NCBI GenBank assembly: GCA_025358085.1 | Contig: JANYKT010000176.1 | Coordinates: 1-52,850 of the forward strand | From: Deltaproteobacteria bacterium | Lineage (GTDB): Bacteria > Myxococcota > Myxococcia > Myxococcales > 40CM-4-68-19 | DNA: 52,850 nt | Direction of reading: 5' to 3' | Part shown: positions 9,575 to 43,696 of the stretch, piece after piece | Position numbering within the stretch: the stretch's first letter is position 1 | How the letters are laid out: each line of letters opens with the position of its first letter | Program-made: the position numbers and the translations under genes | The notes under the pieces: generated by a model | What the model was told of the DNA's origin: nothing | What the model saw: the letters and a program-made list of their open reading frames with translations, nothing else | Databases searched by the model: none

Positions 9575-11869
9575 TTACTCACTCGCTTCGAGGGTGAAAT
9601 AGAAGGTCGTCCCTTCGCCCTCCCGGGAATCGCACCAGACCTCGCCGCCGTGCCGCTGCACGACCTTGCGCACGATGGTCAGCCCGGCTCCGGTCCCACC
9701 ACCATATTCAGACTTCTGGTGCAGGCGCCTGAAGATGCGAAACACCTCTTCCCGGTACTCCGGACCAATGCCGATGCCGTTGTCCTTGACGTAGAAACAG
9801 CGCGCACTGTTCTGCGCGCGCGAGGGAAAGCCGGGCTCACCACGCAGCAGGTAACCCACCTCCACGAGCTTGTTCGCTTTGTCGTTGTACTTCAGGGCAT
9901 TGGAAAGCAGGTTGATGAAGATCTCCTGCAGCCCGACGCGGTCGGCTCGCACGACCGGCAAGAGTCGCGGGATACTCACTTGCGCGCCCGTCTCGCGAAG
10001 CCGCGTGTCGATCGACTCGAGAGCGTCGTGGACGGCGACGTTCAGATCGACGGGCTCTGGATCAAGAGGGCCGCGCCCGAGCCGGGAGAAATGAAGCAAT
10101 GAATCAATCAGCGCCTGCATCCGCTTTGTCAGGCGGACAATGGTCTCCACCTTTTCGCGATCTTCCGGCTCAAACTTTTCCTCGCAGTCAACAAGGAGGA
10201 AGTTTGCGTAGTTATAGATGCCCCGCAGCGGCTCCTTGAGGTCGTGGCTCGCGACATAGGCAAAGGAGTCGAGTTCCGCGTTGCTGCGCGAGAGCTCCAG
10301 GTTCACGCTTGCCAGCGCTTCCCCGCGGTGTTGGAGCACGTCCATCATCGAGACCCGCAATTTGCGCACGGCTTCCATTTCGAGGTCGAGCCACGCGGCG
10401 CAATGGCCCCGGACCGTGTCCTGCCAGAGCGCGAACGACTTCCGCGGAGTCAGGCGATCGCCCATTGGCCCGACCTCCATGGGCTTGCTGGGATCGCCTG
10501 CCCATCGAACGGTCTGCAACAGCTCCGGACGCATCCAGAGGATGTAATCGCCATGCGCTTTGGAGAGAGGGAGGACGAGAATACCCGACGCTGTATCCTT
10601 GAATTTGTCAGCGGCAGGATAGAGGGAAGGCAAGCAATCGGTGGCGAAGACATCGATTCCCCGGTTCTGGCGCAGCCACTCCACCAGCGCGCGCAGTGCC
10701 GGTTCTCCCGGCGTCTTGCCGACGAGATGACAGATTCCGCGGCTGAACACGGCAGCCCCGCCGCAGTCGAAGAGCTCGAGCAGATTCGGCTTGCAGTCAA
10801 CGAGTGCGTCGGCCAGGTCGTCGTGCTTTGCGAGGCTCCGCACCAGCCCCTCGTGCACTTCACTGATCCGCGCCCGATAACCGGACTCGTCGTGAAGTTG
10901 CTTGTCGGCGATTTGCATGGACACCACCCGCGCGAGGAATTCGCAGGCGGTGCGCACGTCGTAGGGGATCTGCCGCGTTGAGTAGTGATGGCAGGCAATC
11001 AATCCCCAAAGCCGATCGTCTTTGGTAATTGCAATGGTCAGCGAGGCATTGACACCCATATTCAACAGGTACTCGGTGTACATCTGCGAAGTGCCGCGCA
11101 GGAACGCAAAGGTCATGTCGAGCGGCTGGCCGGTGCGCGGATTGATTTCGGGAATGATCTGCGAGCGGACATAGCGCGCGTCCGGCAGCATGCGGATGGT
11201 GTTCAGGAGAAAGAGTGCGCGCGCCTGGGAAGGGATGTCGCTCGCCGGATAATGCAGGTCGAGATAGGGACTGAGCCCCTTGTCCTTCGTCATGCTCTCG
11301 GCGATGACATGTCCGCTCCAGTCCCGGCCGAATCGATAGAGCATGACGCGGTCGTAGCCGCTGACCCGGCGCACCTCCTCGGTGACGAGTTCGCAGAAAT
11401 CAATGACGCTCGTGGCTCTCTGGAAACGAGCCACGCTGCGCTTGAGCATGTCGTAGAAGTCAGGCTGGGTAAGCTCGCTTGCGACCCGCTCGAGTTCGAG
11501 CAGGAATAGACCGGCGCGCACATGGCCAATGGCGTGGAACGGCCCGTGTCCGCACACGAGGCCGGTGAATAGATAGAGCGGATTGTTTTCCAGGTGATCT
11601 TCCCGGATGGATCGGTGCAGTGCCGCGAGATTCTCTGCGCTGAGTAGAGCTTCCAGCGGCCTACCCAGCAGAGCCAGCGTGGGGATACCCAGATAGGTCT
11701 CGGTGTTGTCGCTCGCCTGGAGCACCGTCAGGTCGCTGGCGCCGAGCGCGAGCAGCACGCCGTGGGCGCGGATCTGACCGGGAATGTGAATAGGTTCGCG
11801 GTCGCAATTGGTCAGATCAATCTTGACGTCGTGCGGCAGGTCGCCTCGGTCGAAATGTGCTTCAGCCAT
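9575..11869 (-). CDS. bphP: Bacteriophytochrome histidine kinase (copy 1)
   Basis: A 764-residue red/far-red photoreceptor: PAS (about 15-125), GAF (140-310), PHY (325-500), HisKA with ASHDLKEPLRG (H542) and ATPase domain with GGGTGAGLTIV. C22 in LTNCDREP is in the position of the biliverdin-binding Cys of bacteriophytochromes. YPASDIPSQAR carries the conserved Asp (D211) and ACHHY the chromophore-contacting His pair (H294, H295); PRKSF at 475-479 is the PHY tongue motif. All features for biliverdin attachment and kinase activity are therefore present. ATG 11869 has a GGGAGG site ahead. It follows the REC-PAS kinase by 65 nt and is probably in the same transcript. No receiver domain is fused, so it needs a separate receiver partner. 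Confidence 0.95.
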   Translation of the reverse strand: MAEAHFDRGDLPHDVKIDLTNCDREPIHIPGQIRAHGVLLALGASDLTVLQASDNTETYLGIPTLALLGRPLEALLSAENLAALHRSIREDHLENNPLYLFTGLVCGHGPFHAIGHVRAGLFLLELERVASELTQPDFYDMLKRSVARFQRATSVIDFCELVTEEVRRVSGYDRVMLYRFGRDWSGHVIAESMTKDKGLSPYLDLHYPASDIPSQARALFLLNTIRMLPDARYVRSQIIPEINPRTGQPLDMTFAFLRGTSQMYTEYLLNMGVNASLTIAITKDDRLWGLIACHHYSTRQIPYDVRTACEFLARVVSMQIADKQLHDESGYRARISEVHEGLVRSLAKHDDLADALVDCKPNLLELFDCGGAAVFSRGICHLVGKTPGEPALRALVEWLRQNRGIDVFATDCLPSLYPAADKFKDTASGILVLPLSKAHGDYILWMRPELLQTVRWAGDPSKPMEVGPMGDRLTPRKSFALWQDTVRGHCAAWLDLEMEAVRKLRVSMMDVLQHRGEALASVNLELSRSNAELDSFAYVASHDLKEPLRGIYNYANFLLVDCEEKFEPEDREKVETIVRLTKRMQALIDSLLHFSRLGRGPLDPEPVDLNVAVHDALESIDTRLRETGAQVSIPRLLPVVRADRVGLQEIFINLLSNALKYNDKANKLVEVGYLLRGEPGFPSRAQNSARCFYVKDNGIGIGPEYREEVFRIFRRLHQKSEYGGGTGAGLTIVRKVVQRHGGEVWCDSREGEGTTFYFTLEASE

Positions 11870-14370: not shown

Positions 14371-14804
14371 CCCGCTCTCCCGCTTTGCTGCGGCAACAGG
14401 ACAGCGCTGAACCAGTATTCGAGTATTGCGCGAAGCGAGCTGGTTTGTTGCTGCAGGTCCATCACCTTGAGGACAAAGCCCGACGCGCCATTGCGATAGC
14501 AAAAGTCGACGTCGTTCGGATTGTCGGAGGTGGAGAAGATCACCACTGGTATGGTCAAAGTCTTCTCTTCGGCCTTAAGGCGCTTGAGAAAGCCGCGTCC
14601 GTCGAGGCCCCCCAGATTCAGATCGAGCAGGACGATGGCCGGGTTGAGGCTACCCGCCTTGAGCAGGCCCAGTGCTTTCTCGGCATCATTGAAATGCAGG
14701 ACCGGCCGCGCAAAGCCTATTTCGCGAAGGGCGCGCAGGAGGACGGCCAGATCTTCACCGCTGTCTTCAATGACGAGCAGCGGCCTCGCTGGAACGGAAC
14801 TCAA
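14367..14804 (-). CDS. Single-domain response regulator, Rcp1-like
   Basis: A 145-residue stand-alone receiver. It shows VIEDSGED acidic residues, the phospho-acceptor D61 in VLLDLNLGG, a conserved Ser/Thr in VIFSTSDN, and a Lys in FVLKVMD. The NPNDVDFCYRNGASGF wording and a C-terminal LEYWF are typical of receivers paired with phytochromes (Rcp1 type), which lack an output domain. It is wedged between phytochrome 2 and the receiver-first kinase with 4-nt overlaps on both sides. The start must be the TTG at 14804 (TTGA overlap with the phytochrome stop) because no ATG or GTG precedes the receiver fold; this ties its translation to the phytochrome. Confidence 0.9.
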   Translation of the reverse strand: MSSVPARPLLVIEDSGEDLAVLLRALREIGFARPVLHFNDAEKALGLLKAGSLNPAIVLLDLNLGGLDGRGFLKRLKAEEKTLTIPVVIFSTSDNPNDVDFCYRNGASGFVLKVMDLQQQTSSLRAILEYWFSAVLLPQQSGRAG

Positions 14805-17086
14805 TTCGCTCCGAGGGTGAAATAAAAGGTGGTACCGCCACCCTCCTCAGACTCGCACCAGACCTCGCCGTCGTGCCGCTGCACGACCTTACGCACGATG
14901 GTGAGGCCTGCTCCCGTTCCACCACCGAATTGATCCTTCTGGTGGAGGCGCCGGAAGATTCTAAAGACCTCCTCGCGATAGGCCGCGGGGATACCAATAC
15001 CGTTGTCGCGCACGTAGAAACACCGCGTGGACTCCTGTGCGCGCGCCGGAAACCCGGGCTCGAAGCGCTCCAGACTGCCGACCTCTACGGCCTTGTCGGG
15101 TTTGTCATTGTACTTGAGAGCATTAGCAATAAGATTGATGAACACCTCTTGCAGGCCCACACGGTCTCCGCGCACCGTGGGCAAAGGCCGCGGGATGCTG
15201 ACCTGCGCCCCCGATTCGCGCAGCCGCGCGTCGATGGACTCGAGAGCATCGCGGACCGCCTCATTGAGATCGATCGGTTCGAGCGCGATGGGATCCCGGC
15301 CCAGCCTGGAAAAGTGAAGCAGGGAATCGATCAATGCCTGCATCCGCTTGGTCAAGCGGACAATGGTTTCCATCTTCTCCTTGTTCTCGGAGTCGAGCTT
15401 GTCCGTGCAGTCCTGCAAAACGAAGCTGGCGAAGTTGTAGATACCGCGCAGCGGCTCTTTCAGATCATGACTCGCTACGTAGGCAAAGGAGTCGAGTTCC
15501 GCGTTGCTGCGCGACAATTCAACTCGCGCAAGCGCTTCTGCCCGGCGCTGGATGACGTCGGTCATGGCGACGCGGAGCTTCCGCGCGGCCTCGATCTCGA
15601 GGTCGAGCCACCCGGCCCCGCGCCCTCGCACGGTGTCCTGCCAGGCCGCAAAGGACTTTCGCGGTGTCAGGCGGTCGCCCATCGGCCCGATCTCGACTGG
15701 CTTGCTGGGATCGCCCGCCCAGTTCACCGTCCGCAACATCTCGGGGCGCATCCAGATGATGTATTCGCCGTTCGCCTTCGACAGGGGAACGACAAGGATG
15801 CCCGCCGCGGTATTTCTGAATTGCTCCGCAGCTGGATACAGCGAGGGCAAGGCATCAGTTGCGAACACCTCGTTGTCCGGGGCCTGGCGCAACCATTCGA
15901 GCAGCATGCGCAGCTCAGGTTCGCTGGGTGTTTCGCCTGCGCGATGACAGACTCCCCGGCTGAACACGGCCACACCGCCGCAGTCGAAGAGCCCAAGCAC
16001 GCTCGGGTCGCAGCCGATGATCGCACTGCCCACGTCTTCGTTGCGCATCAGGCTTTGCATCATTGAATCGTGCACTTCGCCGATTCGCCCCCGGTAGCCG
16101 GCTTCGTCGTGAAGCTGCTTGTCGGCAACCTGCAATGAAACGACCCGGGCAAGGAATTCACAGGCCGTGCGCACGTCATAGGGGATCTGCCGGGGTGTAT
16201 AGTGGTGGCAGGCAATCAGCCCCCAGAGCCGGTCGCCTTTGGTGATTGCGATAGTCAGTGAAGCATTGACTCCCATGTTGAGCAGGTACTCGGTGTACAT
16301 CTGCGAAGTTCCGCGCAGGAACGCATAGCTCATCTCGAGCGGCAGGTTGGTGCGCGGACTCAGCTCGGGAACGATGCGCGACTGGATATAGCGGGCATCA
16401 GGAAGCATACGAATGGTGTTGAGCAGAAAGAGTGCGCGCGCCTGCGAAGGGATATCACTCGCGGGATAGTGCAGACCAAGATAGGAATCGAGTTGCTTTC
16501 CCTTCTTGATGCTCTCGGCGACGACGTGTCCGCTCCAGTCCGGGGCAAACCGGTAGAGCATGACGCGGTCATAGCCGCTGACCCGCTGGACCTCTTCGGT
16601 GATGAGGTTGCAGAAATCGCCGACGCTCGTGGCCCTCTGGAAGCGCGCTACACTGCGCTTGAGCATCTGGTAAAAGTCGGGCCGCTCGAGGTCGCCTGAC
16701 GCCGGCTCCAGTTCAAGCAGGAAGAGCCCGGCACGCAGGTGTCCAATGGCGTTGAATGGCCCCCGGCCACAGACGAGGCCGGTGAAGAGATAAAGAGGAT
16801 TGTCTTCCAGGTGCTCTTCGCGAATTGCGCGGTGAAGGACTCCCAGATTCTCCCGGGTCAGCAGCGCGCTGAGCGGCGTGCCGAGGAACGCTGCTGTCGG
16901 GATGCCGAGAAACGCCTCCGTGTTGTCGCTCGCCTGCAGCACCGTGAAGTCATCCGCACCCAGCGCGAGAAGCACGCCATGCGCCAGGATCTGTCCCGGA
17001 ATGTGGGTCGGCTCGCGGTCGCAATTGGTGAGGCTCAGCTTCACCGCTTGCGGCACGACGCTAGGCTCCAGCTGTGCCTCGGCCAT
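14801..17086 (-). CDS. bphP: Bacteriophytochrome histidine kinase (copy 2)
   Basis: A 761-residue phytochrome with the same PAS-GAF-PHY-HisKA-ATPase plan as copy 1 and extensive identity along its length. Biliverdin-binding C22 (LTNCDREP), YPASDIPSQAR, ACHHY, PRKSF, ASHDLKEPLRG and GGGTGAGLTIV are all present, so it should bind chromophore and signal. It begins at ATG 17086 with a GGAGGAG site and overlaps the end of the heme oxygenase gene by 26 nt, which links chromophore supply and apoprotein synthesis. The receiver gene follows with a TTGA overlap. Differences from copy 1 cluster in the PHY domain and the linker before the kinase, which could shift spectral or kinetic behaviour. The kinase domain is probably of the dimeric HisKA type. 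Confidence 0.95.
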   Translation of the reverse strand: MAEAQLEPSVVPQAVKLSLTNCDREPTHIPGQILAHGVLLALGADDFTVLQASDNTEAFLGIPTAAFLGTPLSALLTRENLGVLHRAIREEHLEDNPLYLFTGLVCGRGPFNAIGHLRAGLFLLELEPASGDLERPDFYQMLKRSVARFQRATSVGDFCNLITEEVQRVSGYDRVMLYRFAPDWSGHVVAESIKKGKQLDSYLGLHYPASDIPSQARALFLLNTIRMLPDARYIQSRIVPELSPRTNLPLEMSYAFLRGTSQMYTEYLLNMGVNASLTIAITKGDRLWGLIACHHYTPRQIPYDVRTACEFLARVVSLQVADKQLHDEAGYRGRIGEVHDSMMQSLMRNEDVGSAIIGCDPSVLGLFDCGGVAVFSRGVCHRAGETPSEPELRMLLEWLRQAPDNEVFATDALPSLYPAAEQFRNTAAGILVVPLSKANGEYIIWMRPEMLRTVNWAGDPSKPVEIGPMGDRLTPRKSFAAWQDTVRGRGAGWLDLEIEAARKLRVAMTDVIQRRAEALARVELSRSNAELDSFAYVASHDLKEPLRGIYNFASFVLQDCTDKLDSENKEKMETIVRLTKRMQALIDSLLHFSRLGRDPIALEPIDLNEAVRDALESIDARLRESGAQVSIPRPLPTVRGDRVGLQEVFINLIANALKYNDKPDKAVEVGSLERFEPGFPARAQESTRCFYVRDNGIGIPAAYREEVFRIFRRLHQKDQFGGGTGAGLTIVRKVVQRHDGEVWCESEEGGGTTFYFTLGAN

Positions 17087-31274: not shown

Positions 31275-33203
31275 ATGAAGAAGATTATCGGAATCGACCT
31301 GGGCACCACCAACTCCGTGGTCGCCATCATGGAAGGTCGAGACCCCAAGGTCATCGAGAACGAGGAAGGCAGTCGCATCACTCCTTCGGTGGTCGGCTTC
31401 ACCAAGGAAGGTGAAGTCGTGGTCGGCCAGGTTGCGCGACGCCAGGCCATCACCAATCCGGAGAATACCGTCTACTCGATCAAGCGCTTCATGGGGCGCA
31501 AGTTCGAGGAGACGACCGACGAGCGCAAGCGCGTTCCCTACAAGATCGTCAAGGCCGACAACGGCGACGCCGCGGTCGAGATCGACGGCAAGAAGTGGTC
31601 GCCCCCCGAGGTCTCGGCAAAGGTGCTGCAGAAGCTGAAGCGCGCCGCCGAGAATTACCTGGGCGACACCGTGACCGAGGCAGTCATCACCGTCCCGGCC
31701 TACTTCAACGACGCCCAGCGGCAAGCCACCAAGGACGCAGGCCGCATCGCCGGTCTCGAGGTGAAGCGCATCGTCAACGAGCCCACCGCGGCGGCGCTGG
31801 CGTACGGCCTCGACAAGAAGAAGGACGAGATCATTGCGGTGTTCGACTACGGCGGCGGCACTTTCGACATCTCCATCCTCGAGGTGGGCGAGAACGTGGT
31901 CGAGGTCATCGCCACCAATGGCGACACGCACCTGGGCGGCGATGACATCGATCAGCGGATCATGGAGTGGCTGATCGTCGAGTTCAAGAAAGAGACCGGC
32001 CTCGACGTCGCCAAGGACAAGATGGTCCTCCAGCGCCTGAAGGAGGCCTCGGAGAAGGCCAAGATCGAACTGTCCACCACGCTGGAGACCGAGATCAATC
32101 TGCCCTTCCTCACGGCCGATGCTTCGGGTCCCAAGCATCTGGTCAAGAAGTTGTCGCGCGGGAAATTCGAACAGATGTGCGACGACCTCTTCCAGCGCGC
32201 CATCGAGCCGACAAAGAAGTGTCTTGCTGACGCGAAGAAGCAGGCAAATCAGATCGACGAGATCGTGCTGGTCGGCGGTTCGACGCGTACGCCGAAGATC
32301 CAGCAGATCGTGAAGGAGTTCTTCGGCAAGGAGCCGAACCGCTCGGTAAACCCCGACGAAGTGGTGGCCATCGGCGCGGCGGTTCAGGCCGGCGTGCTCT
32401 CCGGCGAAGTCACCGACATCCTCCTGCTTGACGTCACCCCGCTCTCCTTGAGCATCGAGACGCTGGGCGGAGTGGCCACGCCGCTCATCCCGCGCAACAC
32501 CACGATTCCGACCCGCAAGAGTGAGGTGTTTTCGACGGCGGCGGACGGCCAGACAAGCGTCGAGGTTCACGTGCTCCAGGGCGAGCGCCCGATGGCGCGG
32601 GACAACAAGACGCTGGGCCGATTCCACCTCGACGGCATCCCGCCTGCGCCCCGCGGTGTCCCGCAGATTGAAGTGACGTTCGACATCGACGCGAACGGCA
32701 TCGTGCACGTCGGCGCCAAGGATCGCGCCTCCGGCAAGGAGAGCAAGATCACCATCACCTCGTCGTCGGGTCTCTCCAAGGAAGACGTCGACAAGGCAGT
32801 GAAAGAGGCGCAGGCACACGAGGCTGAAGACAAGGACCGCCGCGAGGAGATCGAGACTCGCAACAAGGCGGACAACCTTGCGTACGCTACTGAAAAGAGC
32901 TTGAAGGACCTGGGCGACAAGATTCCGGCCGAGACCAAGACGGATCTCGACGCCAAAATCAAAGCGGTCCGCGATGCGCTCGCCGGCACCGACGTGGCCG
33001 CGGTGAAGACTGCCGCCGACGCGCTGACGCAGGCGTCGCACAAGATGGCGGAAGAGGCGTACAAGGCGGCTGGTCCGACGGGAGCGGGCGGCCCTCCTGG
33101 CGAAGGCGGCGCAGGCGGCCCAGCCGGCGACCCTGCGGCCGGGGCAGCGCCTACCGGTAAAAAAGATGACGTAGTCGACGCTGAATTTGAAGAGCAAAAG
33201 TAG
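31275..33203 (+). CDS. dnaK: Hsp70 chaperone DnaK
   Basis: A 642-residue Hsp70. ATPase motifs include [41 protein letters not shown] and [13 protein letters not shown]. The beta substrate-binding domain begins around [14 protein letters not shown] and includes [15 protein letters not shown]; the lid ends in a Gly/Ala/Pro-rich stretch and [10 protein letters not shown], the usual DnaK tail. It refolds client proteins with DnaJ and GrpE, neither of which is beside it. ATG 31275 has AGGAGA upstream and gives the canonical [10 protein letters not shown] start. A strong hairpin terminator follows, so it is a single-gene transcript. Confidence 0.98.
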
Positions 33204-35078: not shown

Positions 35079-35311
35079 GAAGGCCCTCCGTTCCTGAGTT
35101 GTGCGGCGACTGGCTGGTCGACTTGGCTGAGGGCCGAAAAACTTCCGCGACTCGGAAGCGCGGCCTCTCTCTCTTCTGGTCTGACGTAAAGACTGTCGCA
35201 AACGATTGCCGAACGCAACCTGATCGAGAGCCGGTTCATCCGTCCTGCGCCGGAGTTGACTTCGCGCTGGGTCGGCGCGACGGTTCGCCCGAAAATCTAC
35301 CAGGAGGGCAC

Positions 35312-36178
35312 ATGCCCCGCATCGTCCGCTCCGGCCTGATCCAGTGCGCCAACGCAAAGTCCGAGGGCTCCGTCAAAGAGATCCAGGAGGCCATGTTCGA
35401 AAAGCACCTGCCCCTGCTGGAGGAGGCAGCGAAGAAGGGCGTGCAGATCCTCTGCCTGCAGGAGATCTTCAATGGCCCGTACTTCTGCCCCGCGCAGACA
35501 CCCGACTGGTACGACGCCGCCGAGCCCGTGCCTGGCCCCACCACGGCACGCCTGCAGAAATTTGCCAAGGCGCACGAGATGGTGCTGGTGGTGCCGGTCT
35601 ATGAGCGCGAGATGGCCGGCGTCTATTACAACACCGCCGCCGTCATCGACGCTGACGGCAGCTATCTGGGCAAGTATCGGAAAAACCATATCCCGCAGAC
35701 GAGCGGCTTCTGGGAAAAGTATTATTTCAAGCCCGGAAACCTGGGCTACCCGACCTTCCAGACCCGCTATGCGAAGATCGGAGTCTACATTTGCTACGAT
35801 CGACATTTCCCGGAGGGCGCGCGGCTCTTGGGCTTGAATGGCGCCGAGATCGTCTTCAATCCAAGCGCTACCGTCGCAGGGTTGTCCCAATATCTCTGGA
35901 AGCTGGAGCAGCCCGCGCACGCCGTTGCCAATGGCTACTATATGGGGTGCATCAACCGGGTCGGCACCGAAGCGCCCTGGAACATCGGCAAGTTCTACGG
36001 GCACAGCTACTTCGTCGACCCCCGTGGCAAGTTCCTCGCCGAGGCCAGCGAGGACAAGGACGAGTTGGTGGTGGCCGATTTGGATCTCGATGTGATTGAA
36101 GAAGTCCGCCGGGTCTGGCAATTCTTCCGCGACCGCCGACCCGAAACCTACAGCAACATGACGGAGCAACTGCCATGA
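35312..36178 (+). CDS. Beta-ureidopropionase / N-carbamoyl amidohydrolase
   Basis: A 288-residue nitrilase-fold amidase. The catalytic triad is E51 (CLQEIFNGPYF), K124 (GKYRKNHIPQ) and C161 (YICYDRHFPEG). The GFWEKYYFKPG segment is typical of beta-ureidopropionase and N-carbamoylputrescine amidase. Because dihydropyrimidinase lies two genes on, the likely reaction is N-carbamoyl-beta-alanine to beta-alanine, ammonia and CO2, the last hydrolytic step of reductive uracil/thymine breakdown. ATG 35312 has AGGAGG. N-carbamoylputrescine remains an alternative substrate. Confidence 0.88.
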   Translation: MPRIVRSGLIQCANAKSEGSVKEIQEAMFEKHLPLLEEAAKKGVQILCLQEIFNGPYFCPAQTPDWYDAAEPVPGPTTARLQKFAKAHEMVLVVPVYEREMAGVYYNTAAVIDADGSYLGKYRKNHIPQTSGFWEKYYFKPGNLGYPTFQTRYAKIGVYICYDRHFPEGARLLGLNGAEIVFNPSATVAGLSQYLWKLEQPAHAVANGYYMGCINRVGTEAPWNIGKFYGHSYFVDPRGKFLAEASEDKDELVVADLDLDVIEEVRRVWQFFRDRRPETYSNMTEQLP

Positions 36179-36435
36179 TTCACCCGAAGACCCTTGTCGC
36201 CGCCCTCCTCGGCCTGCTGCTCGCGGCCTGCTCTTCCTCGAATGCGGCGCTGACCAAGAGCGCCGGAGACAGGCGCAGCCGCAACGTGCGCTGCGTGAAC
36301 AGGTCCACCGTAATCACGCCCATTCACCCGGGAGACCAGCCGCGCACCGACGGAGGCGTCGAGACGGTGAGCCCGCGCGGCGAGCTCGAGACAGACGCCA
36401 TCGGCGGCTGCGACACCGACGAAAAGACAAAGTAA
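36175..36435 (+). CDS. Small lipoprotein of unknown function
   Basis: An 86-residue protein. The signal peptide ends in a lipobox, LLAAC (C19 or so), after hydrophobic LVAALLGLLL, so it should be lipid-modified. The mature part is polar with two further cysteines, which could form a disulfide in the periplasm. Its ATG overlaps the preceding stop (ATGA) and it ends 15 nt before the dihydropyrimidinase start, so it is surely made with both enzymes. Why a pyrimidine-breakdown operon carries it is unclear. Confidence 0.75.
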   Translation: MIHPKTLVAALLGLLLAACSSSNAALTKSAGDRRSRNVRCVNRSTVITPIHPGDQPRTDGGVETVSPRGELETDAIGGCDTDEKTK

Positions 36436-36450
36436 GCGAGGGACCTGCCG

Positions 36451-37851
36451 GTGCGCACGCTGATCGAGAACGGGACCGTGGTCACGGCCTCCGAAACTTA
36501 TGTTGCTGACGTATTGATTGAAAACGAGAAGATCGCTGCAGTGGGGGCGGGCCTTGCCCGGCAGCTCTCGGGTGGCGGCTCCGCAAGCTTTGATCGGCGC
36601 ATCGACGCCACCGGCAACTATGTCATTCCGGGCGGTATCGACGTGCATACGCACCTCGATATGCCTTTCGGCGGGACGGTGAGCGCCGACGACTTCGAAA
36701 GCGGCACCATCGCCGCGGCCTGCGGCGGCACCACTACCTTGGTGGACTTTGCCATCCAGCCGCAGGGCGGTGCCCTGAAGCAAGGACTCGCCAGCTGGCA
36801 CCAGAAGGCCGAAGGCAAGGCCGTCATCGATTACGGCTTTCATATGATCATTCGCGAGGTGACCAAGGCTTCGCTCGCCGAGATGGACGACCTGGTGAAG
36901 CGCGAAGGCGTCACCAGCTTCAAGCTCTTTACCGCCTATCCCGGCGTGTTCTTCGTCGACGACGCGGCGATCTTTCGCGCGCTGCGGAAGACCGGCGACA
37001 ACGGCGGCCTGATCTGCATGCACGCCGAGAACGGCCCGGTGATCGACGTACTCATCGAGGAGGCGAAAGCCCGCGGCGAGACGGCGCCGGCGTGGCACGC
37101 CTTGACGCGGCCGCCGCGTCTGGAGGCTGAGGCGTCGCACCGCGTGCTGGCTCTGGCGGAAGTCGCGCAGGTCCCGATCTATATCGTGCACCTTTCAGCG
37201 CAGGAGGCGCTGGAGCAGGTCCGCTTCGCGCGGGACCGCGGCGTGCGGGCCTATGCCGAGACCTGTCCGCAATATCTCTTTCTCGATCACCGCAACTACG
37301 AAGAGCCCGGATTCGAAGGCAGCAAGTATGTAATGAGTCCGCCCCTGCGGATGCCAGGCAACTCTGATGCTCTCTGGCGCGGCCTCGCGCTCGACGACCT
37401 GCAGGTCATCTCTACTGATCACTGCCCCTTCTGTATGAAAGAGAAGCGGCTTGGCGAGGGCGACTTCAGCAAGATCCCCAACGGCGCACCGGGCGTGGAG
37501 ACGCGGCTCTACCTGACTTTCGAAGGAGTGCGAAGCGGCAAGATCTCTTTGAATCGATGGGTGCAGCTCAACAGCGCCGCCCCCGCCAAGCTGTTCGGCA
37601 TGTTCGGCAAAAAGGGCACGCTCGCCCCCGGCGCCGACGCGGACGTGGTCGTCTGGGACCCTGAGAGGCGGCACACCTTGAGCGTCAAGACTTTGCACCA
37701 CCGGGTCGATTACACGCCCTATGAAGGCCGCGAGGTGGTCGGCGCGCCAACCCACGTTCTCTCGCGCGGCAAAGTCGTCGTGGAAGGCGGCAAATTCGTT
37801 GGCCGTAAGGGCGATGGACGGTTCATCAAAAGAGGGCTGACGCTCGCCTGA
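36451..37851 (+). CDS. Dihydropyrimidinase (D-hydantoinase family)
   Basis: A 466-residue amidohydrolase with a full binuclear metal site: H66 and H68 (DVHTHLDMPFGG), the carbamylated lysine K158 (TSFKLFTAYPG), H191 (CMHAENG), H247 (YIVHLS) and D323 (STDHCPF). It opens dihydrouracil or dihydrothymine to the carbamoyl amino acid that the ureidopropionase upstream would cleave. The start is GTG 36451 with GAGGGA upstream. Length and motifs are standard. The reductase for step one (dihydropyrimidine dehydrogenase) is not in the window. Confidence 0.95.
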   Translation: MRTLIENGTVVTASETYVADVLIENEKIAAVGAGLARQLSGGGSASFDRRIDATGNYVIPGGIDVHTHLDMPFGGTVSADDFESGTIAAACGGTTTLVDFAIQPQGGALKQGLASWHQKAEGKAVIDYGFHMIIREVTKASLAEMDDLVKREGVTSFKLFTAYPGVFFVDDAAIFRALRKTGDNGGLICMHAENGPVIDVLIEEAKARGETAPAWHALTRPPRLEAEASHRVLALAEVAQVPIYIVHLSAQEALEQVRFARDRGVRAYAETCPQYLFLDHRNYEEPGFEGSKYVMSPPLRMPGNSDALWRGLALDDLQVISTDHCPFCMKEKRLGEGDFSKIPNGAPGVETRLYLTFEGVRSGKISLNRWVQLNSAAPAKLFGMFGKKGTLAPGADADVVVWDPERRHTLSVKTLHHRVDYTPYEGREVVGAPTHVLSRGKVVVEGGKFVGRKGDGRFIKRGLTLA

Positions 37852-37923
37852 TTGCTGCACGCAGCTTCTGCCAGCCAGTCCGTGACGCGGCGATGACGGA
37901 GCGATGCATACGCTTTCGCCATA

Positions 37924-38853
37924 ATGTTTCTCTCGCGACTCGCGGTCTGGCATCCGGAAGAAAAGCTCACCAACGCTGACCTGGGTCGAATGGTGGACAC
38001 CAGCGACGAGTGGATCGTCTCGCGCGTTGGCATCCGTGAGCGCCGTCGCGCGCCGCCCGAGATGCGAGTCCACCAGATGGGCGCCCAGGCCGCGAAACAG
38101 GCCCTCGATGGGAACCCGGTCGACCTGGTGGTTTGCGGACTGTCTATCGCCGACTACCACTTGCCGTCGACGGCAAATCTGATTGCAGCGGAAGTCGGTT
38201 GCGACGAGGCGGCCGGGTTTGACGTGCGAGCGGCTTGCAGTTCCTTTGCTTTCTCCCTGCATACGCTGCGAGGTCTATTCGCGCTGGGCGAGTTGCAGCG
38301 CGCCCTGCTGGTGATTCCCGAGGCCTACACGCACGTCACCGATTACACCGACCGCGGCACTGCCATTCTCTGGGGCGACGCCGCCTTCGCGTGCCTGGTG
38401 ACGCGCGACGCGCCAGCGGGACCGTCGCTCGAGGTGCTTGACACCTTCATCGGCTCGCGATCGCAGGATGCGCTGCTGGTGCAGGCCGAGGTGGGCGGGA
38501 AGTTCAAACAACAGGGCAATGCGGTGCACGCCTTCGCCATCCGCAAGATGTCCGAAGTGGTCGAGACGTCGCTCACGCGCTGCCATCTCACTGCGCAGGA
38601 CCTTGCGTTCTTCATTGGCCACCAGGCGAACCTCGGTATCCTGCAGCGCGCCTGCGAGCGCGTGGGGATCCCGCCCGAGAAGCATTTGAGCAACATCGAG
38701 ATGTTCGGCAACTGCGGGGCCGCCGGAGCACCATCGGTGCTGGCGCAGAACATGGATCGCTTTCGCGGCGGCGACCGCATCGCCGTCGCGACCGTAGGGT
38801 CTGGGCTCAGCTGGGGCGGCGCCCTGCTCCGCGCCCGCAATCGCGCGGATTGA
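37924..38853 (+). CDS. FabH-like 3-oxoacyl-ACP synthase III
   Basis: A 309-residue thiolase-fold enzyme with the KAS III triad: C105 (VRAACSSFAF), H233 (FFIGHQANLGIL) and N263 (MFGNCGAAG). SDEWIVSRVGIRERR near the start is the usual FabH acyl-pocket signature. It condenses an acyl-CoA starter with a malonyl thioester. No other fatty-acid synthesis gene lies nearby and it sits within a catabolic string, so it is probably a specialised copy (branched starter, secondary lipid or quinolone-like product) rather than the housekeeping FabH. ATG 37924 is the start. Confidence 0.85.
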   Translation: MFLSRLAVWHPEEKLTNADLGRMVDTSDEWIVSRVGIRERRRAPPEMRVHQMGAQAAKQALDGNPVDLVVCGLSIADYHLPSTANLIAAEVGCDEAAGFDVRAACSSFAFSLHTLRGLFALGELQRALLVIPEAYTHVTDYTDRGTAILWGDAAFACLVTRDAPAGPSLEVLDTFIGSRSQDALLVQAEVGGKFKQQGNAVHAFAIRKMSEVVETSLTRCHLTAQDLAFFIGHQANLGILQRACERVGIPPEKHLSNIEMFGNCGAAGAPSVLAQNMDRFRGGDRIAVATVGSGLSWGGALLRARNRAD

Positions 38854-38984
38854 GATAGTTCCGCCGAACCAGACCGGCGCACCTGATTGCGACCGCCGAC
38901 GTGGCAGCATCTGAAAGCGAACCTGCGTGCGCTCGCGGCGGACGAGTAGTAGAACGGATCCGCACTGCCAGGAGGAGTCAACCC

Positions 38985-40277
38985 GTGGACGCAGCCGAGC
39001 TCGCACGCAAGCAGAAGGAATTTCTCTTTCCCAATGTCTCGACCTATTACCAGGAGCCGCTGATCATCGAGTCGGGCAGCGGCATGTTCGTCAAGGATGT
39101 TGAAGGAAAGCAGTACCTCGACTTCTTCGGCGGCATCCTCACGGTCAGCGTCGGGCACTGCCACCCCGCGGTCACCGAGGCGGTGGTGGCGCAGCAGAAA
39201 AAGCTCGTGCACGTCTCGACGCTTTACCCCACCACGCCGCAGATCGAGCTGGCCGAGAAGCTCTACCAATTGAGACCCATGAAGGAGCCGGTGAAGTCTT
39301 TCTTCACCAACTCCGGCACCGAGGCGAATGAGACCGCGGTGACGCTCGCCAAGGTAGCCACCGGCCGCGGCGACCTGGTCACGCTGCGCCACTCGTATGG
39401 GGGCCGCGGCCTGCTGGCGACCAATATGATGGGCAATAAGAACTATCGCCCTCTGCAGAGCGAAGTGGCGGGCATCAAGCATGCTCACGCTCCCTATTGT
39501 TATCGCTGTGACTTCGGGCTCAAGTATCCCGACTGCGGCGTGGCCTGCGCCACCGACATCAAGAACCTGATCGAGACCACGACCACCGGCGCCATTGCCG
39601 GCTTCATGGCCGAGCCCATCCTCGGCGTGGGCGGATTCATCGTGCCGCCGAAAGAATACTTCGAGATCGCGGTGCCCATCATCCGCGCGGCCGGCGGCCT
39701 CTTCATCGCCGACGAGGTGCAGACCGCGTGGGGCCGCACCGGCAGGTGGTGGGGCGTGCAGCAATTCAATGTCGAGCCGGACATCCTTACCAGTGCGAAG
39801 GGTATGGCAAATGGCCAGCCCATCGGGCTCACCATGGCGAAAGCGGACATCGCCAACAAGTTCACCGGCGCATCCATCTCCACCTTTGGCGGCGGGCCGC
39901 CGTCCATGGCGGCGTCGATCGCGACTTTGAAAGTCATTGAAGAAGAGAAGTTGCTGCACAACGCGCAGCTGCTCGGACAGGTGTTCCGCGATGGGTTGAA
40001 TGGGCTGGCCGAGAAGCACCGCGGTATCGGTGACGTGCGCGGCATGGGCCTGATGCAGGCCATCGAGCTGGTCAAGGATCGCGGGACCAAAGAGCCTGAT
40101 GCAAAGGGCGCCCTGCGCCTGATGGAGGCCACCCGCAAGCGCGGCCTCCTCATCGGCAAGGGTGGCCTGTATGGCAACACCATGCGCATCGCGCCGCCGA
40201 TGATCGTCTCGCGCGGGCAGATCGACGACGCGCTCAAGATCATCGGCGAGGCGCTGACCGAGGCGCTGCCGCGATGA
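38985..40277 (+). CDS. Class III aminotransferase, beta-alanine/aspartate family
   Basis: A 430-residue PLP enzyme. The PLP lysine is K272 (TSAKGMANG), the cofactor Asp D243 (IADEVQTAWGRTG), and FFTNSGTEANETA the phosphate-binding region. The start is GTG 38985, preceded by GGAGGAG. The family covers beta-alanine-pyruvate and AGXT2-type enzymes; next to ureidopropionase and dihydropyrimidinase, removal of the beta-alanine amino group is the likely job. Residues 172-188 form an inserted four-Cys loop (C172, C175, C184, C188 in YCYRCDF and DCGVAC), which may bind a metal. Its stop overlaps the next gene's ATG. Confidence 0.9.
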   Translation: MDAAELARKQKEFLFPNVSTYYQEPLIIESGSGMFVKDVEGKQYLDFFGGILTVSVGHCHPAVTEAVVAQQKKLVHVSTLYPTTPQIELAEKLYQLRPMKEPVKSFFTNSGTEANETAVTLAKVATGRGDLVTLRHSYGGRGLLATNMMGNKNYRPLQSEVAGIKHAHAPYCYRCDFGLKYPDCGVACATDIKNLIETTTTGAIAGFMAEPILGVGGFIVPPKEYFEIAVPIIRAAGGLFIADEVQTAWGRTGRWWGVQQFNVEPDILTSAKGMANGQPIGLTMAKADIANKFTGASISTFGGGPPSMAASIATLKVIEEEKLLHNAQLLGQVFRDGLNGLAEKHRGIGDVRGMGLMQAIELVKDRGTKEPDAKGALRLMEATRKRGLLIGKGGLYGNTMRIAPPMIVSRGQIDDALKIIGEALTEALPR

Positions 40278-40774
40278 AATCAGAGCGGCTGCGGCGGTTC
40301 GTGCTCCTGGCCAATCTGGGCGGCCTGCTGCTTTTGCCGGGCTGCAAGAAAGAATCGCGTCCGCCGTCGCTCGGTGAGGCTCTCTCGGTGGAGCAGCCGG
40401 GGGCCTCGGTGGCACAGCTGGTTTCGCAAGGCAGCGAGATCCCGACCAGCGCGACCGAGAGCTTTACCACCGCGCACGATGACGACAGGAAGGTCACCAT
40501 CCATGTGCTGCGGGGCGCGGGCCGCACCGCCGACAAGCTGCACAGCGACGGCTGGTGGACCGTGGACGGCGTCACTCCGGGCAAGGCGGGAGAGGCCAAG
40601 GTGATGGTCACCTTTGAGCTCGACGCGCAGGGTCTGCTCTCGGTGGTCGCGCGCGAGAACGAGCGCAAGCTGGCCGTTCGCAAGCTGGAGGAGGCGCCGG
40701 CAGGAAAGCTTGCGCCCTCGCCGTTGTCGGAGCCCGACGACGACGAAGACGCGGACGCCGACGAGGCGGAGTAG
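40274..40774 (+). CDS. Lipoprotein with Hsp70-type beta substrate-binding domain
   Basis: A 166-residue protein, not a standard DnaK. The signal ends in a lipobox LPGC (C24), so it should be membrane-anchored. From about residue 50 to 140 it follows the beta substrate-binding domain of Hsp70: SEIPTSATESFTTA aligns with the DnaK stretch [22 protein letters not shown] with VEVHVLQG; and VMVTFELDAQGLLSVVARE with [19 protein letters not shown]. The nucleotide-binding domain and helical lid are absent, and the tail is a run of Asp/Glu. It might hold unfolded or hydrophobic peptides outside the cytoplasm without ATP. It is coupled to the aminotransferase by ATGA and followed 6 nt later by the sterol-desaturase gene. 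The homology call is by eye. Confidence 0.7.
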   Translation: MKSERLRRFVLLANLGGLLLLPGCKKESRPPSLGEALSVEQPGASVAQLVSQGSEIPTSATESFTTAHDDDRKVTIHVLRGAGRTADKLHSDGWWTVDGVTPGKAGEAKVMVTFELDAQGLLSVVARENERKLAVRKLEEAPAGKLAPSPLSEPDDDEDADADEAE

Positions 40775-40780
40775 CCGCGC

Positions 40781-41884
40781 ATGCCGAATCCCATCGCGCT
40801 CGCGATCCCGTTCTTCTTTCTGCTGATCGCGATTGAGCTTCTGGTAGCGCGGCGGCGCGGGATGCCGGGATACTATCGATTCAACGATGCGGTCATTGAC
40901 CTTTCCTGCGGCGTCACGCAGCAGGTCTTCGTGGTCTTCGAGATCGCGGTGCTCGTCTCCGGATATGTCTGGCTCTATCAATATCGCCTGTTCAGCTTCG
41001 CAGAAGGCAGCTTGTGGCCCTGGGTGATTGCCTTCTTTGCGGTGGACTTCGTCTATTACTGGTGGCACCGGCTCAGCCACGAGGTGAACTTCCTCTGGGC
41101 GGTCCACGTAGTCCACCACCAGAGCGAGGATTACAACCTGGCGGTCGCGCTCCGGCAGGCCGTCCTCAGCCCGTGGACCATCTGGCCTTTCCATCTGATT
41201 CTTGCTCTTGCCGGGATTCCACCACTGACACTCTTCGTCGTCGATTCAATCTCGACCTTGTATCAATTCTGGATTCATACCGAATTGATTGGTCATATGG
41301 GCTGGTTCGAGCGCGTCTTCAATACTCCCGCACAGCACCGGGTCCACCATGCGGTCAATCCGCGCTATCTCGACAAGAACTATGCAGCGACACTCTGCAT
41401 CTGGGACCGGCTCTTTAACACTTTCGCAGAAGAGAACGAGCAGCCGGTCTACGGCCTGGTGAAGCCATTGAAAAGCTTCAATCCCTTCTGGGCGCAGTTC
41501 CACCTTTTCTTTGAGTTGGCCAGCCGCAGCGCGGGATTGCGCGGCTTCGACCGGGTGCGTGTCTGCCTGCGCGGGCCGGACTGGGGCTATCCGCCGGCGC
41601 CGGGAACCAGCCGCGCGCAACAGCAGAAATATGATCCCCGGGTGTCGGGCCGTAGGAGGGCGTGGATTGCCGTCAATCTGGTGGCGGCCATTGTCACAGC
41701 GTCGTTGCTTCTCTGGTTTCAGGCGATGCTGCCGCTGGACAAGAAGCTGCTTCTTGCGGCGCCGGTGCTGATGACGCTCTTCGGCTTCGGCGCGCTGATC
41801 GAGCGTCGCCGCTGGGCCCTGCCGCTCGAAGCAGTGCGACTCGCAGCTATCGCCGCCGCGGCCGTGGTCTGGGTCCGGCTCTGA
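40781..41884 (+). CDS. Sterol desaturase / fatty-acid hydroxylase family oxygenase
   Basis: A 367-residue membrane di-iron enzyme. Histidine clusters are HRLSH (96-100), HVVHH (109-113) and HRVHH (186-190), with membrane helices on both sides and extra C-terminal helices after about residue 290. The order and WWHRLSHE, VHVVHHQSEDYN and NTPAQHRVHHAVN wording resemble alkylglycerol monooxygenase and related lipid hydroxylases. It would hydroxylate or desaturate a lipid with oxygen. It starts 6 nt after the Hsp70-like lipoprotein gene and is convergent with the metalloprotease (2-nt gap). Confidence 0.85.
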   Translation: MPNPIALAIPFFFLLIAIELLVARRRGMPGYYRFNDAVIDLSCGVTQQVFVVFEIAVLVSGYVWLYQYRLFSFAEGSLWPWVIAFFAVDFVYYWWHRLSHEVNFLWAVHVVHHQSEDYNLAVALRQAVLSPWTIWPFHLILALAGIPPLTLFVVDSISTLYQFWIHTELIGHMGWFERVFNTPAQHRVHHAVNPRYLDKNYAATLCIWDRLFNTFAEENEQPVYGLVKPLKSFNPFWAQFHLFFELASRSAGLRGFDRVRVCLRGPDWGYPPAPGTSRAQQQKYDPRVSGRRRAWIAVNLVAAIVTASLLLWFQAMLPLDKKLLLAAPVLMTLFGFGALIERRRWALPLEAVRLAAIAAAAVVWVRL

Positions 41885-41885
41885 G

Positions 41886-43208
41886 CTAGCGCTTGCGCCG
41901 GCGCAGCAGCGAGAGCAGCGCCAGCAGCGGGAGCGCCCCGACCGAGGACGCCGTCGAGCAGCCCGCCGAGTTGGCCGAACCCGTCTGCGTCAGTGTGATG
42001 GGATCGCTGATGCAGGTGACGGTCGGCTTGCCGGCGGGATAGATGCCCTGAATGGCTTGGATATCGTCGTCGTGCAGCGTGCGCTTGGAGATCTCTCCCT
42101 CGGGAGCGGTGGCGAACATGGTCGCGTCGGGCACCGTGGTGTGGTCGAGACCCAGCGAGTGCCCGGCCTCGTGAGTGATGGTGTTCTCGATATCCGTGCG
42201 CACGCAGCCGGTCTGGTTCGGGTCGCTGCACGGCGGGCCGTCATTGGCGGTGAAGACGAACTTGGTCGAGCCGTCGCTCCCGGGCGCGTCGTTGAGCTCG
42301 ATATCGGTGTCGGAGATCTGTCCGGTGTAGCGGTTGGACGTGGTGGTGGTGGTGGCGATGACGGCGTCGCCGTGATCCCAGCAGTCGTACTTGTTTCCGC
42401 AGCCGCCTTCCTGCAGGCAGGCGTCGCCGGGCGGAACCGCGCTGGCGCAGTTGGCGGTGCGCCACAACACCAGGTTGACGTTGAACTGGCCGGGGAAGAA
42501 ACCGATCTTGCGATTCTTTGGATCGAGCGAGAGCCCCTGATCAGGGAACGACAAGTCCGAGCCCGGCACGCCCGCCCAGGCGGCGAAACTTTTGCGGACG
42601 GCGGTGAACGCGGCGGTGCCCACCACGTCGGGAGTCCCCCTGCCATCGATGAGGAAGCTGTGGCCGCGCGTGGCCCAGAAGACGCAGAGGCCCCCGCTGT
42701 TCACCGACCGCTTCGATGCGTGCGCCGGAAACGAGCCGAGCACCAGGGCCAGGGCCAGTCCGCTCCGAACGCCCGGGGCCCGGCGCAGCGACCGGACGGC
42801 GCGCACCAGCGCGGCGCGGCGACGACGGCGGGCGAGGAACGCTGCGAGCGGTAAAAAGCCCCCGGGCAACCCGCCGCTGCCGAAGCCGTGCGTCGCCGTG
42901 CCGCCCCAGCGCACCGGCACGTGCGCGGACGAAACCGCCTGCCACGCCGACGCGGCGGCGACGACGGCCGAGCGCAGACCCTCGGCCCCGCGCAGGTGCA
43001 GCGCGGCCGGCGGCGAGATCAAGCGGACTCGCACAACGGCTCCGGGCCCCGCCCAGCGCAGGTATTGGCCGTCGACCGCGCGGTGCGCCTCCCAGGCGGG
43101 CGCGGCCGTGGCGGTGAGCACGACGGCAGACAGCGCGGCCAGCGCTGCGCGTCGCACAGGCGGGCAATGCCGCGTGCGCGCTGCCGCAGACTTGCCCGGC
43201 TGGCTCAC
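41886..43208 (-). CDS. Secreted metzincin metalloprotease, apparently a fusion of two genes
   Basis: One frame of 440 residues. The C-terminal 306 residues look complete: signal-like helix SGLALALVLGSFPAHA, a metzincin site HEAGHSLGLDH, a Met-turn (ATMFATAP), and a MYXO-CTERM-like tail (Cys in AGCSTASS, hydrophobic ALPLLALLSLL, then RRRKR), which suggests myxosortase-type surface sorting. A GTG at 42806 would start this part. The first 134 residues (GTG 43208, overlapping the upstream stop as GTGA) hold another signal peptide, the first half of a similar domain, and a second tail-like stretch GGLPGGFLPLAAFLARRRRR. I read this as two tandem protease genes, the first gutted by an in-frame deletion. 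Which start is used is open. Confidence 0.75.
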   Translation of the reverse strand: MSQPGKSAAARTRHCPPVRRAALAALSAVVLTATAAPAWEAHRAVDGQYLRWAGPGAVVRVRLISPPAALHLRGAEGLRSAVVAAASAWQAVSSAHVPVRWGGTATHGFGSGGLPGGFLPLAAFLARRRRRAALVRAVRSLRRAPGVRSGLALALVLGSFPAHASKRSVNSGGLCVFWATRGHSFLIDGRGTPDVVGTAAFTAVRKSFAAWAGVPGSDLSFPDQGLSLDPKNRKIGFFPGQFNVNLVLWRTANCASAVPPGDACLQEGGCGNKYDCWDHGDAVIATTTTTSNRYTGQISDTDIELNDAPGSDGSTKFVFTANDGPPCSDPNQTGCVRTDIENTITHEAGHSLGLDHTTVPDATMFATAPEGEISKRTLHDDDIQAIQGIYPAGKPTVTCISDPITLTQTGSANSAGCSTASSVGALPLLALLSLLRRRKR

Positions 43209-43696
43209 TGCCGCAGGCTCCCGCGTACGCGCGAGCGCAGGTCGGAGAGCGAAAGCGCGTCCTCTTCGTTCGCCCGGCAGCCCACGCAAGAGACGCCGCT
43301 GCGATCGCGCGAGGCCGCGCCCTTGCTGACGGAGAATTTTCCCAGCGCCCAGCGCTCGACGCCAAACAGGCTCGGGGCGAGCTGCCGCAGGAAGACCACC
43401 ACCTCTTCGTTCTCGCTGAACTTCGCCACGCCCTGCACCGTCTGGTCGATCTCGCCCACCGCGCCGCCGGGCACCCTGACGATGACCTCGGGCCGCGCGC
43501 GCCCTTTAAACCACTCGATGGGTGCGAGGGTGACGCGCGTATAAATGACGCCGCTCGCCGGGCCGCCCGCGCCCCAGGCGCTCTTGCTGTGCAGGACTCG
43601 CGCATGGACGACGGCGTCGGACGCGTAGGTCAGCGTGGCGACGTCCGCGGGGCCGCGCAGAGTGGCGGCAATCAGGTAAAGAAGCGCGAGGTTCAT
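43205..43696 (-). CDS. Secreted protein of unknown function, partner of metalloprotease
   Basis: A 163-residue protein with a short signal peptide (MNLALLYLIAATLRG) starting at ATG 43696. The mature part is beta-rich: ASDAVVHARVLHSKSAWG, IYTRVTLAPIEWFKG, EVIVRVPGG, EEVVVFLRQ. This pattern looks like a small secreted fold that I have seen beside myxobacterial metalloproteases, but I cannot name it. Two Cys near the end (SCVGC) may form a disulfide or bind metal. It is coupled to the protease frame by GTGA, so inhibitor, chaperone or cofactor roles for the protease are possible. Confidence 0.65.
   Translation of the reverse strand: MNLALLYLIAATLRGPADVATLTYASDAVVHARVLHSKSAWGAGGPASGVIYTRVTLAPIEWFKGRARPEVIVRVPGGAVGEIDQTVQGVAKFSENEEVVVFLRQLAPSLFGVERWALGKFSVSKGAASRDRSGVSCVGCRANEEDALSLSDLRSRVRGSLRQ

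Follow-up and report, generated by a model that had tools for sequence, protein, structure and literature searches.

Hsp70 chaperones are understood as operating through an ATP-driven cycle of domain coupling. Fragments of DnaK limited to its substrate-binding domain (SBD) fold alone and bind peptide. At the level of individual residues, a replacement of D481 abolishes ATP-induced substrate release by DnaK, while changes in D481 and K414 raise its basal ATPase and disrupt its allostery (PMC4595643). The periplasm contains no ATP (PMC8144458). A natural peptide-gripping half of Hsp70, with its coupling residues lost and placed in an ATP-free compartment, would test what the clamp does alone. 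A candidate for such a protein is encoded on the contig JANYKT010000176.1 of a Deltaproteobacteria bacterium, in a stretch of 52,850 nucleotides that was analysed as a whole and is referred to below as the window.

Architecture and predicted fold of the lipoprotein

The gene (window 40274-40774, forward strand) is a complete ORF of 166 aa with an ATG start and a TAG stop, as judged from the ORF itself, the Pfam match and the orthologues. Its sole Pfam-A family is HSP70 (PF00012; E=2.1e-15; 56.4 bits, the cut-off being 20.6 bits), with residues 37-132 (40382-40669) aligned to positions 394-489 of the 599 in the profile. Since the match is confined to these positions, it corresponds to the beta SBD alone; a PDB profile search and AlphaFold combined with Foldseek lead to the same assignment. 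An Hsp70 beta SBD in the mature protein had been proposed by eye in the initial annotation, and the profile search of this region indeed returned a strong Hsp70 match. PF00012 is matched by all ten orthologues (see below), and the profile built from them finds the solved DnaK SBDs in the PDB at E=2e-19, ungapped across 95 positions.

The SBD is preceded by a predicted signal peptide (residues 1-23, MKSERLRRFVLLANLGGLLLLPG; 40274-40342) with a charged n-region, a hydrophobic core and the lipobox LLPG-C, an equivalent of which is found in 10 of 10 orthologues, by the lipobox Cys24 (40343-40345), an invariant alignment column and the putative +1 residue of the mature protein, and by a short linker (residues 25-36; 40346-40381) with an invariant PP[SA]LGE motif. 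It is followed by a C-terminal tail (residues 133-166; 40670-40771), in which the orthologue alignment reveals a conserved acidic end of the PL[ST]EPDD type (D and E make up 45-50% of the last 20 residues). The nucleotide-binding (actin-like ATPase) domain is missing, as follows from the length of the ORF and the restricted PF00012 match. In the alignment with DnaK, the segment in front of the SBD reads CKK..RPPSLGE and contains no hydrophobic interdomain linker. The alpha-helical lid is replaced by the acidic tail, where the predicted models show no helix. The lack of the ATPase domain and the lid, as well as the presence of a lipobox and an acidic tail, all originally pointed out for the window protein, extend to the entire set of ten orthologues.

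An AlphaFold2 model of the lipoprotein was built from an alignment whose only Hsp70 sequences were nine orthologues, and so does not lean on DnaK; its pLDDT was 64 over the whole chain and 63-91 for the core blocks. In a Foldseek comparison with the PDB its best 50 matches were all Hsp70 SBDs, DnaK being at the top (2.7e-7, probability 1.00). Addition of four DnaK SBDs, on which the second model does lean, gave a pLDDT of 80 (84-92 in the core), a match to DnaK at 7.4e-11, a superposition of BiP at 1.3 A over 105 columns, and a match at 7.7e-9 to the complex of HscA with the IscU peptide ELPPVKIHC. This second model also contains isolated bridge residues at mature-protein positions 9 and 128, where its confidence is limited; the tail or the PPSLGE segment may possibly serve as an autoinhibitory element. 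Overall, the prediction is an SBD beta sandwich rather than some other fold, as the initial annotation had anticipated, and the fold and architecture of the lipoprotein are well supported. A chance resemblance to Hsp70 is ruled out by the Pfam, orthologue-profile and PDB matches and by Foldseek.

Distribution, selection and gene neighbourhood

The ten orthologues (including the window protein) all belong to one uncultured soil Myxococcota family. A search of 60 related genomes located full-length orthologues in 9 of the 11 other genomes of this family, the two without one being 61% and 74% complete. The nine are 45-66% identical to the window protein, two of the ten start with GTG or TTG, and each has the same layout of a lipobox-type signal peptide, one short PP[SA]LGE linker, the SBD and an acidic end, so that the survey of relatives bore out the expected pairing of a signal peptide with an SBD. 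When 84,980 species representatives were scanned, eight loci came up, all in metagenome genomes labelled 'Deltaproteobacteria' or Myxococcales and all corresponding to the orthologues above. Of 195 genomes of the phylum that were searched, none outside the family gave a full-length match, no relative of the lipoprotein was found in viral contigs, and a complete listing of Hsp70 proteins in 16 genomes of 13 other families contained no SBD-only form. One candidate from another genome (G070, 275 aa) was discarded, as it ends at a contig end and an ATPase-domain half lies at the end of another contig; these two DnaK halves (ATPase domain, and SBD with lid; L088 and L089) are a gene split by the assembly and not a natural separation of domains.

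The Nei-Gojobori omega for the closest pair of orthologues is 0.10, and over all pairs the mean pN is 0.25 versus a mean pS of 0.53 that is compressed by high GC, both pointing to purifying selection on the lipoprotein.

In 9 of 10 genomes the gene directly upstream encodes a class III aminotransferase (window 38901-40277, forward strand), whose stop codon and the start codon of the lipoprotein overlap in an ATGA (40274-40277), suggestive of translational coupling of the two. The next recognised downstream gene in 7 of 10 genomes encodes a membrane protein of the fatty acid hydroxylase/sterol desaturase type (40781-41884, forward strand). The order of genes before the lipoprotein is dnaK, a carbon-nitrogen hydrolase (beta-ureidopropionase-like; 35099-36178 for the ORF as listed, its true start being uncertain), a dihydropyrimidinase-type amidohydrolase of the same cluster (36451-37851), a ketoacyl-ACP synthase (KAS) III-like protein and the aminotransferase, the two hydrolase genes being likewise on the forward strand. 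In the single genome where the aminotransferase does not occupy this place, the dihydropyrimidinase is directly upstream of the lipoprotein. In the window, and in the three loci that extend far enough to include some or all of it, dnaK precedes the lipoprotein gene in the same orientation; in two more genomes it lies close by on the contig that carries the lipoprotein. Judging from the families of its members, the cluster resembles one for reductive pyrimidine catabolism, and the KAS III-like protein is an odd presence within it (35099-40277). No functional link of this cluster to a peptide clamp is evident, and no link of the lipoprotein gene to secretion or envelope-stress genes is visible, a point against the clamp reading given below. 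In a genome of another family (G015), the dihydropyrimidinase and the aminotransferase are adjacent with no lipoprotein between them, which is most simply explained by insertion of the lipoprotein gene into an existing cluster.

These data bear on the trivial explanation that the ORF is a recent gene fragment or an annotation artefact devoid of function. Its confinement to one family and the GC-rich surroundings, where spurious ORFs are many, would be in line with such an origin. On the other hand, the ends and the gene order are conserved across the ten orthologues, which are under purifying selection; this makes it extremely improbable, and we rejected a pseudogene or fragment on the grounds of orthologues, selection and synteny.

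Several other features of these loci were recorded. In two genomes of other families, G018 (L077, after 2871) and G019 (L081, after 2478), an ORF with a lipoprotein-type signal and no Hsp70 domain closely follows the 3' end of the homologous aminotransferase. A matrixin-type (Peptidase_M10) metalloprotease is encoded in the window at 41886-43289 on the reverse strand; its homologues are found downstream of the cluster in several genomes of the family, and in G015 (L076) such a homologue comes directly after the aminotransferase. Elsewhere in the window (9575-11869 and 14801-17086, reverse strand) there are two similar bacteriophytochrome-like sensor histidine kinases of 764 and 761 aa, an apparent duplication separated by an ORF for a response-regulator/PAS kinase (families assigned by eye).

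Groove residues, and probable ancestry and cellular location

From L399 onward the alignment of the orthologues with E. coli DnaK is free of gaps, which allows a position-by-position comparison; the roles of the DnaK pocket residues are presumed here to be those in the DnaK-NRLLLTG structure. Five pocket positions are hydrophobic in all ten orthologues: I401 is replaced by V and F426 is retained throughout, the position of V436 has L, I or V, and those of I438 and I472 have V or I. A sixth, V407, has become Ser in 8 of 10. In the arch, M404 is changed to Pro in 9 of 10, and the position of A429 is small in 9 of 10, while the rim residues Q433-S434-A435 have given way in all ten to an acidic residue followed by two that are basic or His. 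An invariant pair W94-W95 (window 40553-40558) takes the place of Q456-F457 in each of the ten. Among the residues of DnaK involved in coupling to the ATPase, K414 is replaced by Gln in 8 of 10 orthologues and is never Lys, and D481 by Gln in nine and Lys in one, as opposed to Arg414 and Asp481 in 15 of 15 sequences of the HscA clade. In terms of the alignment, a kept pocket together with lost coupling residues would fit a clamp that has no ATPase. Another change, Ala for Arg467 at the lid-latch position, was considered as a mark of lid loss and dismissed; it is common to all 15 HscA-clade sequences and therefore is not evidence for it.

The presence of Pro404, Ser407 and a new charged rim means that the groove may have a different ligand or none at all. 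A possible, albeit minority, reading is that the SBD fold has become a scaffold without peptide binding, an interaction module of an inner-membrane complex, for example with the neighbouring fatty acid hydroxylase-type protein. The altered arch, pocket and rim positions, the invariant Trp pair and the recurrence of the hydroxylase gene downstream in 7 of 10 genomes all speak for it, but a groove that is out of use would be expected to lose its exposed aliphatic and aromatic residues, and the five pocket positions have stayed hydrophobic in every orthologue.

As to the ancestry of the domain, NCBIfam ranks HscA (TIGR01991, 1.1e-18) above DnaK (TIGR02350, 4.6e-17), both being equivalogs whose cut-offs the lipoprotein does not reach (67.1 bits versus 708.55 and 61.6 bits versus 822.55, respectively). 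In trees of 94-95 columns the ten lipoproteins form one clade (100/100). One tree joins this clade to HscA and sets it apart from DnaK at 97/91 (starred), and the bootstrap overall is 94-97%, a rough figure. Upon removal of long-branch paralogues the HscA grouping was retained at 94/92 (unstarred), for a domain that is short and on a long branch. The window also encodes a canonical DnaK of 642 aa (31275-33203, forward strand), which scores above its equivalog cut-off. The initial annotation had compared the lipoprotein to this DnaK; the match of the SBD stands, yet the closest relatives appear to be the SBDs of HscA, and an origin from the neighbouring DnaK finds no support in the trees. The same genome keeps a normal HscA (812.8 bits versus the cut-off of 708.55) in an iscA-hscB-hscA-fdx arrangement, with neighbours named by eye. 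Taken together, the profiles and trees suggest with moderate confidence that the lipoprotein arose when an SBD of the HscA type was duplicated and joined to a lipoprotein signal; the confidence is no higher because the domain is short and its branch is long.

An affinity with HscA might also mean that the clamp recognises the fixed motif of one partner, as HscA does with LPPVK of IscU, instead of unfolded proteins in general. The branching of the domain with or next to HscA, the HscA-like IPTSAT..FTT region and Ala467 common to both, and the high conservation of the charged rim, suggesting a fixed ligand, are all compatible with such a client-specific receptor. It appears unlikely to us, given a tree of only 94-95 columns with a long branch and given that the arch and rim residues of HscA itself are not kept.

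The lipobox-like ends of the orthologues, judged by eye on the alignment, are [AG]C, HAC or TAC with the Cys invariant in 10 of 10. None of the nine mature proteins in alignment A2 contains a second Cys, and the tenth orthologue (L013) has no further Cys in its sequence. These features, with the signal peptide assessed by eye, suggest export and lipidation at Cys24. The +2 residue is Lys in 9 of 10. In Myxococcus xanthus, +2 Lys is tied to the inner membrane (8 of 12 inner-membrane lipoproteins have it) and +7 Ala to the extracellular matrix (PMC3222651). By analogy with this other myxobacterium, the lipoprotein likely sits on the inner membrane at its periplasmic face, since nine of the ten orthologues conform to the +2 Lys pattern.

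Proposed role and relation to known systems

The reading we favour, with a probability of about 0.5, is that of an ATP-independent, lidless, membrane-tethered clamp for exposed peptide segments, made of an SBD, probably of the HscA type, that would be exported to the inner membrane. After secretion as a lipoprotein and attachment of a lipid to Cys24, the protein would stay tethered to the inner membrane on its periplasmic side, where its retained pocket would bind short hydrophobic polypeptide segments without ATP. Peptide exchange would be fast because there is no lid, and the role could be that of a tethered holdase or a peptide receptor. The lipoprotein likely works like the peptide-binding half of DnaK or HscA. 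We consider the chances about even that evolution has here produced an Hsp70 peptide clamp with neither ATP nor a lid, acting outside the cytoplasm on a lipid anchor. If true, this would show that the Hsp70 SBD is able to function by itself, with no coupling to a nucleotide cycle; the ATP-independent envelope chaperones would gain a further fold, and a peptide-binding module of small size would be available ready-made.

Searches of the open-access literature turned up no account of an exported Hsp70 reduced to its SBD, and the initial claim that no named family is like it agrees with the lack of a described family of the same architecture in Pfam, NCBIfam, the PDB, the searched genomes and that literature. 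With ATP-independent periplasmic chaperones such as Spy, the lipoprotein would share a proposed ATP-free holding of unfolded proteins; their folds are unrelated to it, and in the passages covered of the review PMC8144458 none has an Hsp70 domain as its basis. The best sequence matches of the lipoprotein in the PDB, DnaK SBDs isolated as fragments of 115-135 aa (1dg4, 1q5l), comprise the same lidless beta subdomain, but these are laboratory constructs and not natural proteins. DnaK (PF00012; TIGR02350) has in common with it the beta sandwich and the hydrophobic peptide pocket, whereas the lipoprotein is without the ATPase domain, linker and lid, is changed in the ATPase-contact residues and is predicted to be an exported lipoprotein. 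HscA (TIGR01991) is the closest by profile and probably also by SBD in the trees, sharing the IPTSAT..FTT region and Ala467; unlike the lipoprotein, it is a cytoplasmic protein of about 600 aa with its own ATPase domain and lid, encoded in the isc operon. Overall, the lipoprotein represents an apparently undescribed, conserved new arrangement of a known domain, which by the features that define those two families is neither DnaK nor HscA.
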